Source: Burkholderia sp. WP9 (GTDB lineage: Bacteria > Pseudomonadota > Gammaproteobacteria > Burkholderiales > Burkholderiaceae). Taken from it: a DNA stretch of 64,000 nt. Position numbers and translations under genes: made by a program. The stretch lies in assembly GCF_900104795.1 (NCBI RefSeq), contig NZ_FNTG01000002.1:1054001-1118000 (forward strand), written 5' to 3'. The stretch's first letter is position 1; the number at the start of each line of letters is the position of its first letter. Below, piece by piece: positions 15,901 through 22,004 of this stretch. The notes beneath the pieces are model-generated. The model searched no databases and was not told the DNA's origin. It saw only the letters and a program-made list of their open reading frames with translations.

Positions 15901-16373
15901 GACGTATCCTCGAGTGTGAACAGGCGCGCTGCCGGAAGAACGAAGCGCTTGTGTGCACTGTAGGCATGAACGCAGTCATTGAGAATTCACGATTTTATTT
16001 GGCAGACTTAACCGATCCGTTATCCATCACGGAAACGCGAAGCGAATTTTCAACACCCGCGCTCGGAACGGTGGACAATGGTTCATATGGGAACTGCAAG
16101 CATGGCGTGACAGGAGGACAGCAAGCGTCTGCCCGTCATGGAACACTTTGCTGCATTCCCGGAACAGTGCGCGGCGTCACAGTTTCGTGCCGCCCGCCCG
16201 GTCGCCGCGCCGGTGCAATTCGGCAAACGCTGTATTGCGGCGCGTCACTGCGCGGTTCACGCCGCGTGGTCGAAAACCCGGCATGGAGCTTGCGTGGTAA
16301 TGAACGCCAATGCAGTTCGGCATCACGCCGGACCGACGGCGCAACGCTGTATCACTACATGGAGGAAGCACAT
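15901..16373. promoter_or_regulatory. cbbL-pqqA divergent control region with possible dyad
   Basis: This 473-bp gap carries the leftward cbb promoter and the rightward pqqA promoter. TAACCGATCCGTTA (16009-16022) is an imperfect dyad with outer arms TAAC/GTTA, about 110 bases upstream of cbbL and of LysR-site size, so it is a candidate CbbR operator. Apart from the sigma-54-like site listed separately, no other gene is evident; the open frames here lack coding character. Confidence 0.35.
16279..16293 (+). promoter_or_regulatory. Sigma-54 (-24/-12) promoter candidate for pqqA
   Basis: CGGCATGGAGCTTGC matches the sigma-54 pattern GG-N10-GC with GGCA and TTGC boxes. The same 15 bases occur before fhcB. 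It is 81 bases upstream of the pqqA ATG, giving a predicted leader of about 70 bases. An AcoR-type activator is encoded 13 kb away in the same cluster. Confidence 0.6.
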
Positions 16374-16448
16374 ATGCAATGGACGACTCCGAGCTACACC
16401 GATATGCGTTTTGGTTTCGAAATCACGATGTATATCGCTACGCGTTAA
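16374..16448 (+). CDS. pqqA: PQQ precursor peptide PqqA
   Basis: A 24-residue peptide beginning MQWTTPSYTDMRFGFEIT. Glu16 and Tyr20, which PqqE cross-links to build PQQ, are in place, with the MYIATR tail. The ribosome site GGAGGAAG lies 6 bases upstream. It is separated from pqqBCDE by about 12 kb, with the H4MPT/fhc genes between, so it is expressed independently, as expected of a peptide needed in excess. Confidence 0.95.
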   Translation: MQWTTPSYTDMRFGFEITMYIATR

Positions 16449-16454
16449 GCCCGC

Positions 16455-16477
16455 AAGGGCCGCGAGACGCGGCCCTT
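16455..16477 (+). terminator. Strong hairpin after pqqA
   Basis: AAGGGCCGC and GCGGCCCTT form a perfect 9-bp stem around a GAGAC loop, starting 7 bases after the pqqA stop. There is no T-run, so it is more likely an mRNA 3'-end stabiliser or attenuator than a classical terminator. Such hairpins after pqqA are common and keep the short message abundant. Confidence 0.7.
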
Positions 16478-16549
16478 CTGCGGATTGGTGGGTTAATCCC
16501 TAGCTAGACGGCCGGCCTTTCGGCGCTGCCAGGACACGCGTTCCCAGCC

Positions 16550-17149
16550 ATGATCCACGAAACGATCGTCACCACGGCAGCGTGCGATGGCCGTCCTCAT
16601 ATCGCGCCGATGGGAGCCCGTTATGAGGGCGACTTCGTCATCCTTTCCCCTTTTCGTCCTTCGGTGACGCTCGACAATATCGTCGCATCGCGCGCGGCGG
16701 TACTGAACTTCACCACGGACGTTCGCATCTTCGCCGGCTGCGTCACGCATTGCGCCACCGATTGGCCGACGCTCGCGGCAAGCCGCGTGGCTAGCATCAG
16801 GCTCGCCGAATCGCTCGCGCATGCGGAACTCGAACTCGACGAACTGCGCGACGACAAGGAGCGCCCGGTGCTGCGCATGAAATGCGTGCACCGCGAAAAC
16901 CATGCGCCGTTCGGCGGCTTTAACCGCGCCCAGGCCGCGGTGGTGGAAGGTGCGATTCTCGTCAGCCGGCTTTTCATGCTGCCCGCCGACAAGGTGGACC
17001 GCGAAATGGCCTACCTGCAGATCGCCATCGACAAAACCGCTGGCGAGGTCGAACTCACCGCCTGGAGCTGGCTCACGGCCGCGATCGCGCGGCACCGCGA
17101 CAATCTCGCAGCTTCCGGCGGTTCGGCCGCCGAACTCGTATCCCACTAG
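16550..17149 (+). CDS. DUF447 family protein of the H4MPT cluster
   Basis: The protein has 199 residues. It is built like a flavin-reductase split barrel, with GRPHIAPMGARYEGDFVILS followed by VLNFTTDVRIFAGCVT and DWPTL. DUF447 genes travel with methanopterin and methylofuran genes in methylotrophs and archaea, but I know of no established activity. Downstream of pqqA and 26 bases from mfnB, it is probably co-transcribed with mfnB. An FMN-binding redox or cofactor-assembly role is inference only. Confidence 0.8.
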   Translation: MIHETIVTTAACDGRPHIAPMGARYEGDFVILSPFRPSVTLDNIVASRAAVLNFTTDVRIFAGCVTHCATDWPTLAASRVASIRLAESLAHAELELDELRDDKERPVLRMKCVHRENHAPFGGFNRAQAAVVEGAILVSRLFMLPADKVDREMAYLQIAIDKTAGEVELTAWSWLTAAIARHRDNLAASGGSAAELVSH

Positions 17150-17175
17150 CCCTTCCCGTGTTTCGGAGAATCTCG

Positions 17176-19882: not shown

Positions 19883-20958
19883 GGCTGGGCTCCACAGGCA
19901 CACGGCGCGCCATGGTTGCGCGCCGCCGGACCGGATCGCTCGATGCGCACGCCGTGCGCATCGAGCAGCGTGCGTGCGAGATTGCCGCCCAGCGCCTCGG
20001 AAAGGCCGGCATACGCGACGGTCAGCCGCGGATTGACCTCGATCACAACCGGCCCGCGCTGCGGATGCCACACCACGTCGATGCCGACAAAGCCGCGCAA
20101 GCCCGGCATCGCCTTCGCGACGCGTTGCGCGAGCACGTCGAGCATGCGGCCCTGGTCGCCGGCCGGATCGATCTGGTTAACCGTCACGCCGTCGAATTCG
20201 ACGATGCGCGGTTGCTGCCCCGCATCGCCTGCGCTCAAGCTGATTTGCTGACGGTTGATGCTCACGAGTTCCACGCCCTCGGCGCGGCAGACGAGCGAAA
20301 GGCTGAGCGGTTCGCCTTCGACCCATGACTGCAGTACGGGTTTGCGTGCGGCGGCCGCGCGGGCTTCGTATTCGGCGCAGGCGTCGACGAAATTGTCGAA
20401 CACGAAGGTATCGAGACCGCCCGCGCCGTCGTCGGGTTTCACGACCCAACGCTCGCCGCGCCGCTCATCGGCCTGTGCCGGTTCGGCCTGTCCGGGTTCG
20501 ATCTGTCCGGGTTCGATCGCAGGCGTGGTGGCGATGCCATGCGCCGCGAGGCACGCCGCCGTCGCGCTCTTGCTCGACGCCACGCGGATCGCTTCTTTCG
20601 CGCAGCCGAGCCAGCGCGCCGCGCCCACCGCATCGTACAGACGCAGCAGCAGCCCATCGCATTCCGGCGCGATGATCCACGCGTAATCGTGCTCACGCGC
20701 CGCACGCGCGACGAAAGCCGTCATCGACTCCCCTTGCGCGGCCCTACAATGAGCGAGCGCCGGGTCGACGGTTTCGAAGCGCGAACTCGCGAAGCTCACT
20801 CGCACACCGTCGAGTTCGCGCAGGTCGTTCGCGAGCGCGTCGCGCATCACCCGGCCTTCGACGATCAGCGCGCTCAGGTCGGCGAGACTCGCCGCGCCGG
20901 CATGCGCCGGGTCGATACCGCCGCCGGTGAGATACTCGAAGACAAAGATCTTGGTCAA
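19879..20958 (-). CDS. mfnD: ATP-grasp ligase, MfnD-like (tyramine/tyrosine-glutamate ligase)
   Basis: The protein has 359 residues. MTKIFVFEYLTGGGIDP is the family's start, GERWVVKPDDGAGGLDTFVF the ATP-grasp nucleotide site, and PVVIEVNPRLTVAYAGLSEA the metal site. MfnD adds glutamate to tyramine in methanofuran synthesis; bacterial methylofuran carries a tyrosine-like unit, so the substrate may differ. A short insert with IEPGQIEPGQAEPAQ derives from a 15-base DNA duplication. Only 14 bases separate its start from the divergent HisA-like gene. Confidence 0.83.
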   Translation of the reverse strand: MTKIFVFEYLTGGGIDPAHAGAASLADLSALIVEGRVMRDALANDLRELDGVRVSFASSRFETVDPALAHCRAAQGESMTAFVARAAREHDYAWIIAPECDGLLLRLYDAVGAARWLGCAKEAIRVASSKSATAACLAAHGIATTPAIEPGQIEPGQAEPAQADERRGERWVVKPDDGAGGLDTFVFDNFVDACAEYEARAAAARKPVLQSWVEGEPLSLSLVCRAEGVELVSINRQQISLSAGDAGQQPRIVEFDGVTVNQIDPAGDQGRMLDVLAQRVAKAMPGLRGFVGIDVVWHPQRGPVVIEVNPRLTVAYAGLSEALGGNLARTLLDAHGVRIERSGPAARNHGAPCACGAQP

Positions 20959-20972
20959 AGGAACGCGCCCCT

Positions 20973-21731
20973 ATGCAGGTGATACCGGTTCTCGATCTGC
21001 TCGACGGACACGTGGTGCGCGCGGTGCGCGGCGAACGCACGGCTTATCGGCCGATCCGCTCGTCGCTCGCCGCCACCAGCGAGCCGCTTCACATCGCTCG
21101 TGCGCTGCTTGCCGCAAGCGGCGCACGAACGCTCTATATCGCCGACCTCGGCGCGATCCTTCAGCAAGGCGCTCATGTCGAGACGCTCGCTGCATTGCGT
21201 GCCGCCCTGCCCGGCACTGACATCTGGCTCGACGCGGGCTATGCCGACTACTCGTCGATGCATACGCTGTTCGAACGCATCGAAGCCACCGGCAAGCGCA
21301 ACAGCCACAGCGGCAATCCACCTCCTGCGCACGATCTTGCGACTCTCGTACCTGTCTTCGGCACCGAGTCGCTCCACGACCTCGACGCGCTCTGCGCCGC
21401 CGACGCTGCCGGACTCTCGCCGATCCTTTCGCTCGACCATCGCGCCGGCCAACTGCTCACCGCTACCGCATTCGAACGCACCGCCGCATGGTGGCCTCGA
21501 AGAGTGATCGCGATGACACTCGATCAGGTGGGCAGCTACGACGGCCCCGATCTCGCCACCGTCGAACGCATTCGTGCCGCTGCACCCGCGCAAACCGCCG
21601 TGATCGGAGCAGGCGGCATTCGTGATCGCGACGATATGGCGGCAGCAGCCCGCACTGGCGCTTCTGCGTGGCTCGTGGCGTCCGCGCTGCATGATCGCCG
21701 AATCGGCATGCCACTCACCGAGTCCACCTAA
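20973..21731 (+). CDS. HisA-like TIM-barrel protein of the H4MPT/methylofuran cluster
   Basis: The protein has 252 residues. MQVIPVLDLLDGHVVRAVRGE parallels HisA (the catalytic-Asp strand and 'G.VVR...G'), with ADLGAI, FGTESL and VIGAGGIRDRDDM as phosphate-binding loops. It is too divergent and too tied to C1 genes to be the histidine enzyme. Similar HisA-related proteins occur in methylotroph H4MPT clusters. Its reaction is unknown to me. It is divergent from mfnD. Confidence 0.75.
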   Translation: MQVIPVLDLLDGHVVRAVRGERTAYRPIRSSLAATSEPLHIARALLAASGARTLYIADLGAILQQGAHVETLAALRAALPGTDIWLDAGYADYSSMHTLFERIEATGKRNSHSGNPPPAHDLATLVPVFGTESLHDLDALCAADAAGLSPILSLDHRAGQLLTATAFERTAAWWPRRVIAMTLDQVGSYDGPDLATVERIRAAAPAQTAVIGAGGIRDRDDMAAAARTGASAWLVASALHDRRIGMPLTEST

Positions 21732-21821
21732 GCGAGCCATACAAATTCCATGCCAATCGGCGCAGGGGGTGTGCATGTAAACGAACGGCAAGCTGTTGTG
21801 GCAGTTCGTGACACTCTGCTC

Positions 21822-21840
21822 CAGGTTGACACACAACCTG
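21822..21840. promoter_or_regulatory. Perfect dyad upstream of fhcB, candidate activator site
   Basis: CAGGTTG-ACACA-CAACCTG is a perfect 7+7 inverted repeat. It lies about 150 bases upstream of the fhcB sigma-54-like promoter, which is the usual distance for an enhancer-binding-protein site. No copy was found before pqqA, which weakens the case. Confidence 0.45.
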
Positions 21841-21989
21841 TGCGGCGCAGCCGGCAGGCGCGTCGCCGAATCAGCGCCACGACTGCGCAATGCGGCGAAA
21901 ACCGCGACCGTATCGATTGCTTTAAGCGCAGGGCCACATAAGCCACGCGCGACGCGTCGCACACCCGCGCCACCGGCTTGTATTCAGAT

Positions 21990-22004
21990 CGGCATGGAGC
22001 TTGC
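21990..22004 (+). promoter_or_regulatory. Sigma-54 (-24/-12) promoter candidate for fhcBADC
   Basis: CGGCATGGAGCTTGC fits GG-N10-GC and is identical over 15 bases to the pqqA site. Predicted transcription would begin near 22016. That places the possible ATG at 21994 inside the promoter, so I chose the later ATG at 22018. Confidence 0.6.

Follow-up and report, generated by a model that had tools for sequence, protein, structure and literature searches.

The closest described systems place the dehydrogenases that use pyrroloquinoline quinone (PQQ) under sigma-54 or under a lanthanide switch. In the accessible parts of PMC6115532, exaA of Azospirillum brasilense is controlled by sigma-54 plus a LuxR-type regulator, while PedS2/PedR2 of Pseudomonas putida is a two-component, LuxR-type lanthanide switch whose sigma factor is termed unknown; the sigma-54 motifs of Methylosinus are placed at nitrogen genes in the part consulted of PMC12403871. 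Within the literature searched, which was seen partly in excerpts and with most subscription journals outside its scope, we found no regulon joining sigma-54 (RpoN) to xoxF, PQQ or the tetrahydromethanopterin (H4MPT) pathway, and no account of how the archaeal-like formaldehyde pathway and lanthanide-type methanol oxidation are induced in Burkholderiaceae. Here we discuss a candidate for such a regulon in Burkholderia sp. WP9, centred on a stretch of 64,000 nucleotides (contig NZ_FNTG01000002.1, positions 1,054,001 to 1,118,000; hereafter the window), in which an identical 15-base sequence stands before pqqA, encoding the PQQ precursor peptide, and before fhcB, the first gene of a formyltransferase/hydrolase operon.

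Our comparison makes it probable that the pqqA and fhc promoters belong to one sigma-54 regulon with xoxF and probably the mtdB-mch operon, under the activator encoded at 1364. The locus resembles the sigma-54 promoters served by AAA+ enhancer-binding activators in its GG-N10-GC core, its upstream element, its activator with a GAFTGA motif and the presence of rpoN. It differs from the sigma-54 systems seen in the literature parts searched in its target set (xoxF, pqqA, fhc, and mtdB/mch) and in an fhcB transcript that is predicted to be practically leaderless. With Azospirillum exaA, as far as the available text describes it, it would share sigma-54 control of a PQQ alcohol dehydrogenase, but here the candidate regulator is a GAF/AAA+ activator, and the regulon would reach the PQQ precursor and the H4MPT/methylofuran pathway. 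With PedS2/PedR2 it would have in common the regulation of a PQQ dehydrogenase in a lanthanide context, although that system, in the parts seen, is two-component and LuxR-type.

The -24/-12 sites before pqqA and fhcB

The 15-mer CGGCATGGAGCTTGC lies on the forward strand at 16279-16293 and 21990-22004; both copies have the GG-N10-GC geometry and stand just 5' of their genes, as the sequence-only reading had given it. The distances are 80 bases to the pqqA ATG (16374) and 13 to the fhcB ATG (22018). In the whole genome (9,023,533 bases in 7 contigs) the exact sequence occurs at these two places only, and with at most one mismatch at 7 places, against 4 for a reversed control pattern. The identity of the two copies, with which that reading began, we reject as evidence and regard as coincidence, because direct repeats of such length are common in the window (21 pairs of 15 bases or more, against a mean of 10 in 20 order-1 random sequences) and because the two sites share the same 15-mer in only 2 of 38 loci, the window and L043. 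Nor does a consensus scan of the whole window discriminate, as it finds no surplus of -24/-12 sites (11 found, 14.5 expected); conservation alone therefore separates the two sites from the background. The extended sigma-54 promoter consensus is TGGCACG-N4-TTGCW, and against this consensus the two sites score 19.8 and 20.8 of 21.5, departing by C for T at the first base, T for C at the sixth and, at pqqA, G after TTGC. The genome also carries rpoN, with two matches to PF04552 above the cut-off. Two further near-consensus sites lie near other genes of the window, at 44000-44015 and 62744-62759, both on the reverse strand.

A search for FhcA across 299 genomes of the family gave long matches, around which 48 stretches were fetched. 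Before fhcB, all of these relatives (48/48) have a GG-N10-GC site scoring at least 19.2 between -300 and +60 relative to the aligned start. When the region is narrowed, 44 of 47 reach a score of 18; the sites of L083 and L084, at +27, fall outside it. The pqqA gene is present in 38 of the 48 loci and preceded by a site in each of them, or in 39/39 with the window, at a score of at least 18. Dinucleotide shuffles reach that score in 34/780 cases for pqqA, 21/940 for fhcB, 24/600 for xoxF and 30/640 for g367. In the 39 pqqA and 42 fhcB sites compared, GG is always followed by C and A, and GC always preceded by TT (100% each), the invariance of GG and GC themselves being built into the scan. The flanking bases are mostly conserved at 31-62%, apart from a T (97%) two bases 3' of the pqqA core and three A positions (71, 86 and 74%) around the fhcB core. 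Conservation of each site beyond its shuffles makes each copy an independently conserved -24/-12 element, and from this comparison the two 15-mers are very likely genuine sigma-54 promoters of pqqA and of the fhcBADC operon. A chance repeat without promoter function would fit the abundance of repeat pairs in the window; it is highly improbable, since the core positions stay invariant while the flanks diverge and the position of the sites relative to their genes is preserved.

Extent of the probable regulon and the candidate activator

The sequence-only reading had proposed a single sigma-54 regulon for PQQ supply and formaldehyde oxidation, resting on two genes, and had named xoxF and fae as further places of interest. 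The census of the other cluster genes bears out the first part and widens it. At a score of 19, sites precede pqqA in 37/38 regions, fhcB in 43/46, xoxF in 17/29 and the g367-mtdB operon in 12/31, with reverse-strand counts of 0, 0, 2 and 1, respectively; at a score of 18 xoxF reaches 29/30 and g367, the head of the mtdB/mch operon, 20/32, with the weaker sites. The xoxF core, CCGGCATGGAATATGC, is nearly constant and lies about 155 bases 5' of the start codon, whereas the g367-mtdB site is weaker and TGGTAYGNCTTYTGC-like. Among more distant clusters, canonical sites occur at the g367 start of L237 (TGGCACGACGCTTGCA) and before mtdB in L238 (TGGCATGGCGCTTGCG), and none was found in the g367/mtdB region of L236. 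Other cluster genes mostly count 0-4, the exceptions being dhps (4/10, of which two are slicing artefacts at the stretch edge, and 7/29 in a second set) and grasp2 (5/30); the sites before DUF447 (34/40) are the pqqA site, and the reverse-strand counts of cbbL (18/33) and pter (9/30) represent the divergent pqqA and xoxF sites. No standard site was found before fae (0/29 at a score of 19). Instead, fae is preceded by TGGCAYG-N5-TGWTAG in 21/21 displayed of 30 sequences (about L094:13190-13210 and relatives), with GG-N10-GT or GA rather than GC, possibly an atypical sigma-54 promoter. Before the activator gene itself a site was seen in 0/32 of the second set and 1/6 of the first, and we rejected the idea that this gene is under sigma-54 as well.

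Expectation maximisation on the four promoter sets gave a 20-column upstream motif, approximately TGACACAGT-TGTTTCG. At 8 bits or more, and counting regions with a recognised core, it is present in 39/39 pqqA, 29/30 xoxF, 27/44 fhcB and 9/26 g367 regions, and in other genes mostly in 0-3. In the window the probable activator sites are TGGAACACTTTGCTGCATTC at 16139..16158 (+) before pqqA and CGTGACACTCTGCTCCAGGT at 21807..21826 (+) before fhcB. The motif also scores in 33/34 cbbL regions, which are the same region as that of pqqA; pter and DUF447 were left out of the control because their regions overlap. A first pattern of the element had 6 places in the genome against 3 for its control.

The activator gene (1289..3454, +; open frame from 1289, likely start ATG 1364) encodes GAFTGA, as noted from the letters alone, within a sigma-54 interaction domain (residues 373-536) that follows a GAF domain (residues 94-222) and is accompanied by a Fis-type helix-turn-helix (HTH). 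Its earlier label as AcoR-type holds for this GAF/AAA+/Fis-HTH layout, shared with AcoR/DhaR-type activators; it does not extend to family assignment, the DhaR model giving 277 bits, far under its cut-off of 551, and no AcoR model standing among the 25 of 28 families shown. The comparison covered 60 genomes: 52 have a long fhcA match, and 8 of the same genus lack one (four with fragmentary fhcA, G167, G215, G227 and G297, were left out). The activator was found at E 1e-150 or better in 51/52 and 0/8, respectively, and the only fhcA genome without it, G282, has two stops in fhcA. The PQQ dehydrogenase follows the same distribution (50/52 and 0/8). Activator and fhcA share a contig in 41 of the 51 genomes and lie on separate draft contigs in 10; even on one contig they can be far apart (about 108 kb in G280). 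In a scan over named genomes, the best 80 of more than 591 stretches consisted almost entirely of paralogs and included one close relative, Paraburkholderia sp. NMBU_R16 (L100). The sensor part of the activator (P0001) carries cysteines at positions 98 and 163 in 32 of 33 orthologs each, at 169 in 30 and at 173 in 23, unlike six paralogs, where the same positions count 0, 2, 0 and 0; these cysteines could bear on aldehyde sensing.

Across 399 genomes of the order, the activator was found at 1e-160 in 15, of which 13 belong to nine other families. Nine of these 13 have fhcA at 1e-60; a dhps-like neighbour stands by the activator in 9 loci and xoxF nearby in 5, and 4 of the 5 xoxF regions carry a site of at least 18.2. 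In G555, from another family, the fhcB site is TGGCACATCGTTTGCG; the ATG lies 15 nucleotides (nt) past its C, and the element scores 10.6 bits. In three other-family genomes (L292, L296 and L299) a relative of the activator lies near xoxF, though no fhcA was found at E 1e-60.

The cluster also encodes a LuxR-type response regulator (31784-32488, +) and a histidine kinase (32458-33486, -), and by analogy with Azospirillum exaA this pair could be decisive at promoters of sigma-54 type, the AAA+ protein serving other genes. The response regulator is nearly constant, with a close ortholog in 49/52 fhcA genomes. Yet G004 and G177, without a response regulator at the threshold used, keep the activator and the fhcB site, and G068, with a match of only 40% identity, keeps the activator and both the pqqA and fhcB sites (L063). 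Lacking an AAA+ domain, a LuxR-type protein would still leave these promoters in need of a GAFTGA activator. We regard control by this pair as rather unlikely, and prefer the protein encoded at 1364, which is likely the regulator.

Several observations weigh against a common regulon. The motif was trained on the promoters that it scores, other genes being the sole control, and it is missed in 17/44 fhcB and 17/26 g367 regions, the g367 region of the genome itself among them. It scores as well in ACT (8/38), flav (8/37), grasp (7/44; five of the seven being the fhcB element, in overlapping regions) and fhcC (7/49), and before fae in 26/30 regions, at about -300 to -390, inside citG and on the other strand, which were not counted. 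The pattern YGNNACASTNTGYNNC is not enriched, with 19 places in the genome against 22 for its reversed control. Outside the family, the upstream element at 10 bits was found in 0/5 xoxF regions, two pqqA regions lack a site, and the 12 fhcA loci show merely one or two weak upstream candidates, the fhcB start not being located there; because these loci do not show the element, our confidence in the regulon is slightly lowered. The loci within the family are related rather than independent (three genera for pqqA, four for fhcB), the site score uses hand-set weights, and the evidence throughout is sequence comparison.

Part of this would also suit real sigma-54 promoters at pqqA and fhcB that answer to different activators: the upstream elements differ in detail (TGGNACACTTTGCTGC vs GTGACACTNTGYTCCA), the motif is missed before many fhcB genes, and the survey of sigma-54 activators covered the cluster proteins. 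We consider such a divided control quite unlikely, as one motif spans pqqA, xoxF and most fhcB regions, and as a scan of the cluster proteins gave no sigma-54 activator apart from the one encoded at 1364, whose gene accompanies the cluster. Among the 19 matches to YGNNACASTNTGYNNC, only those of xoxF, pqqA and fhcB have a core of at least 18 downstream in the same direction; no non-cluster place has such a core within about 350 bases on either side, though three have weak cores of 17.5-17.6 (L244, L247 and L254). At L250, inside citG, a core of 18.6 lies on the opposite strand. The pattern alone is thus unspecific, and its combination with the core specific. What the aligned loci establish is that the cores are conserved, that a similar element lies upstream, that few cluster genes carry such sites and that the activator gene co-occurs with them; together these make a common regulon of these promoters likely, their dependence on rpoN and on the protein encoded at 1364 being inferred.

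Predicted starts and leaders of the fhcB and xoxF transcripts

To place the fhcB start, the conserved WTCPFC frame was followed upstream in 43 of 49 sequences, six without the anchor letters being dropped. In 41/43 loci the C of the -12 element is followed at 12-16 nt by an in-frame ATG, though the distance to the anchor ranges from 40 to 176, and in 27 loci there is no alternative start codon between that C and the anchor; the exceptions are L078 and L079, with GTG at 47 and 46. In the window the spacing is 14 nt. Transcription from sigma-54 promoters starts about 12 nt after GC, and with the spacing above the fhcB mRNA would begin 0-4 nt before its AUG; we thus predict it to be leaderless or nearly so. 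In the window the predicted starts fall at about 16305 for pqqA and 22016 for fhcB, 2 nt ahead of the AUG, and the xoxF transcript would start about 12 nt past its core. Leaderless mRNAs as such have been described in Burkholderia cenocepacia (in the part seen of PMC4603805, 72 genes whose transcription begins with the start codon and 42 where it begins within 10 nt, 24 of these being tRNAs) and in Sinorhizobium (171, in the part seen of PMC3616915). A link of leaderless mRNA to sigma-54 was met neither in the parts consulted of these two papers and of PMC5243855 nor among the matches listed in the literature search.

The gene that we call xoxF, a PQQ dehydrogenase (Pfam PF01011) named from its context, lies 8 kb past the left edge of the window. 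Its leader (L094:5904-6044, -) is conserved with 32 relatives and consists of a hairpin plus a CGTTACC/GGTAGCG helix around a GGCGCGC-rich loop. A perfect-hairpin search, made without a shuffled control, places a hairpin at the equivalent position just after the predicted start in 33/33 distinct leaders, with several paired changes. The 7-pair helix is paired in 100% of cells and the inner helix in 82%; both helices together (13 pairs) have 92.2% of cells paired (8/500 shuffles as high), 11 cells with double changes (0/500) and a covariation score of 0.128 (1/500), counts that lean towards the helices because these were drawn from the very sequences tested. Slid controls pair in 24-44%. Neither the pairs that show a double change (2; 283/500) nor the further pair types (10; 249/500) outnumber those of the shuffles. 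At the gathering score, Rfam gave no match for the window, L094 or the xoxF leader; the leader had two chance-like snoRNA matches only. With a model built on the leader, matches at E 0.01 came from 8 genomes among the 399 of the order, those in G000 and G009 strong and the other six weak, for which reason we dropped the idea of a widespread riboswitch. The leader is retained as a candidate cis-regulatory RNA.

Organization of the cluster and proposed course of induction

Several genes, such as fhcB and pqqA, are named from position and sequence without a family match. The activator gene is followed by a flavoprotein gene (from 3451) and a dihydropteroate-synthase-like (dhps-like) gene (from 4117); an 11-base tandem repeat, ATCTCGCATGA, runs at 4019-4063 from the end of the former into the gap before the next gene. 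Between the dhps-like gene and pqqA lies, on the other strand, a cbb operon with RuBisCO, which holds an IS5-family transposase gene beside a shortened transketolase (8193-10620; profile 3-444 of 654). The pqqA promoter (16279..16294, +) precedes a gene for a peptide of 24 residues (16374..16448, +), followed immediately 3' by a strong GC-rich hairpin (16451..16483, +; -30.7 kcal/mol in a fold of 16440-16500); the terminator scan did not report this hairpin, which is possibly a terminator or a stabilised 3' end. Genes of methylofuran/H4MPT-type biosynthesis lead on to the fhc promoter (21990..22005, +) and fhcB (22018..23394, +), whose product had no match in the Pfam search and which is named by its place beside fhcA and its conservation; fhcA, ftr (fhcD) and fhcC complete the operon (23391..26914, +). 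Cytochrome b561, an alpha/beta hydrolase, pqqB, pqqC and pqqE follow on the same strand with small gaps (26993..31823, +). These genes are possibly read from the fhc promoter: at a score of 19, no sigma-54-like site was found before cytb (0/45), pqqB (0/45) or pqqC (0/33), and no intrinsic terminator was found to prove or exclude read-through.

To the left of the window, in L094 (G000:C2:1040001-1056000), lie the genes for the PQQ dehydrogenase, a pterin dehydratase, g367, mtdB, an ATP-grasp protein, mch, RimK-type and CitG-type proteins and fae; the methanol-to-formate cluster thus lies partly within the window and partly to its left. A second fae-family gene occurs elsewhere in the genome (G000:C2:1778971-1779444).

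In the course of induction that we propose, the GAF domain of the activator would sense a C1 signal (methanol, formaldehyde or a derivative), the protein would bind the TGACACAGT-TGTTTCG-like elements, and its GAFTGA loop would open the sigma-54 polymerase at all these promoters. The lanthanide-type methanol dehydrogenase (xoxF), its cofactor precursor and the means of formaldehyde disposal would then appear together, and the fhc transcript, starting within a few bases of its AUG, would be translated in a leaderless or near-leaderless manner. Tentatively, this can be extended to a scheme in which one AAA+ activator controls the entire lanthanide-type methanol-to-formate route via sigma-54, with three outputs fixed by evolution: a short monocistronic pqqA; an fhc operon, leaderless or nearly so and perhaps continuing into pqqBCE, in which the promoter-to-AUG distance is kept to 12-16 nt; and an xoxF mRNA whose leader, conserved and structured, could add a second signal (metal, PQQ or C1).

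If confirmed, a conserved leaderless transcript from a sigma-54 promoter would be out of the ordinary, and leaderless translation would be coupled directly to a promoter that depends on an activator. The sigma-54 regulon proposed here for methanol and formaldehyde oxidation is directly testable, since it comes with predicted starts, a predicted binding element and a named candidate for the activator.

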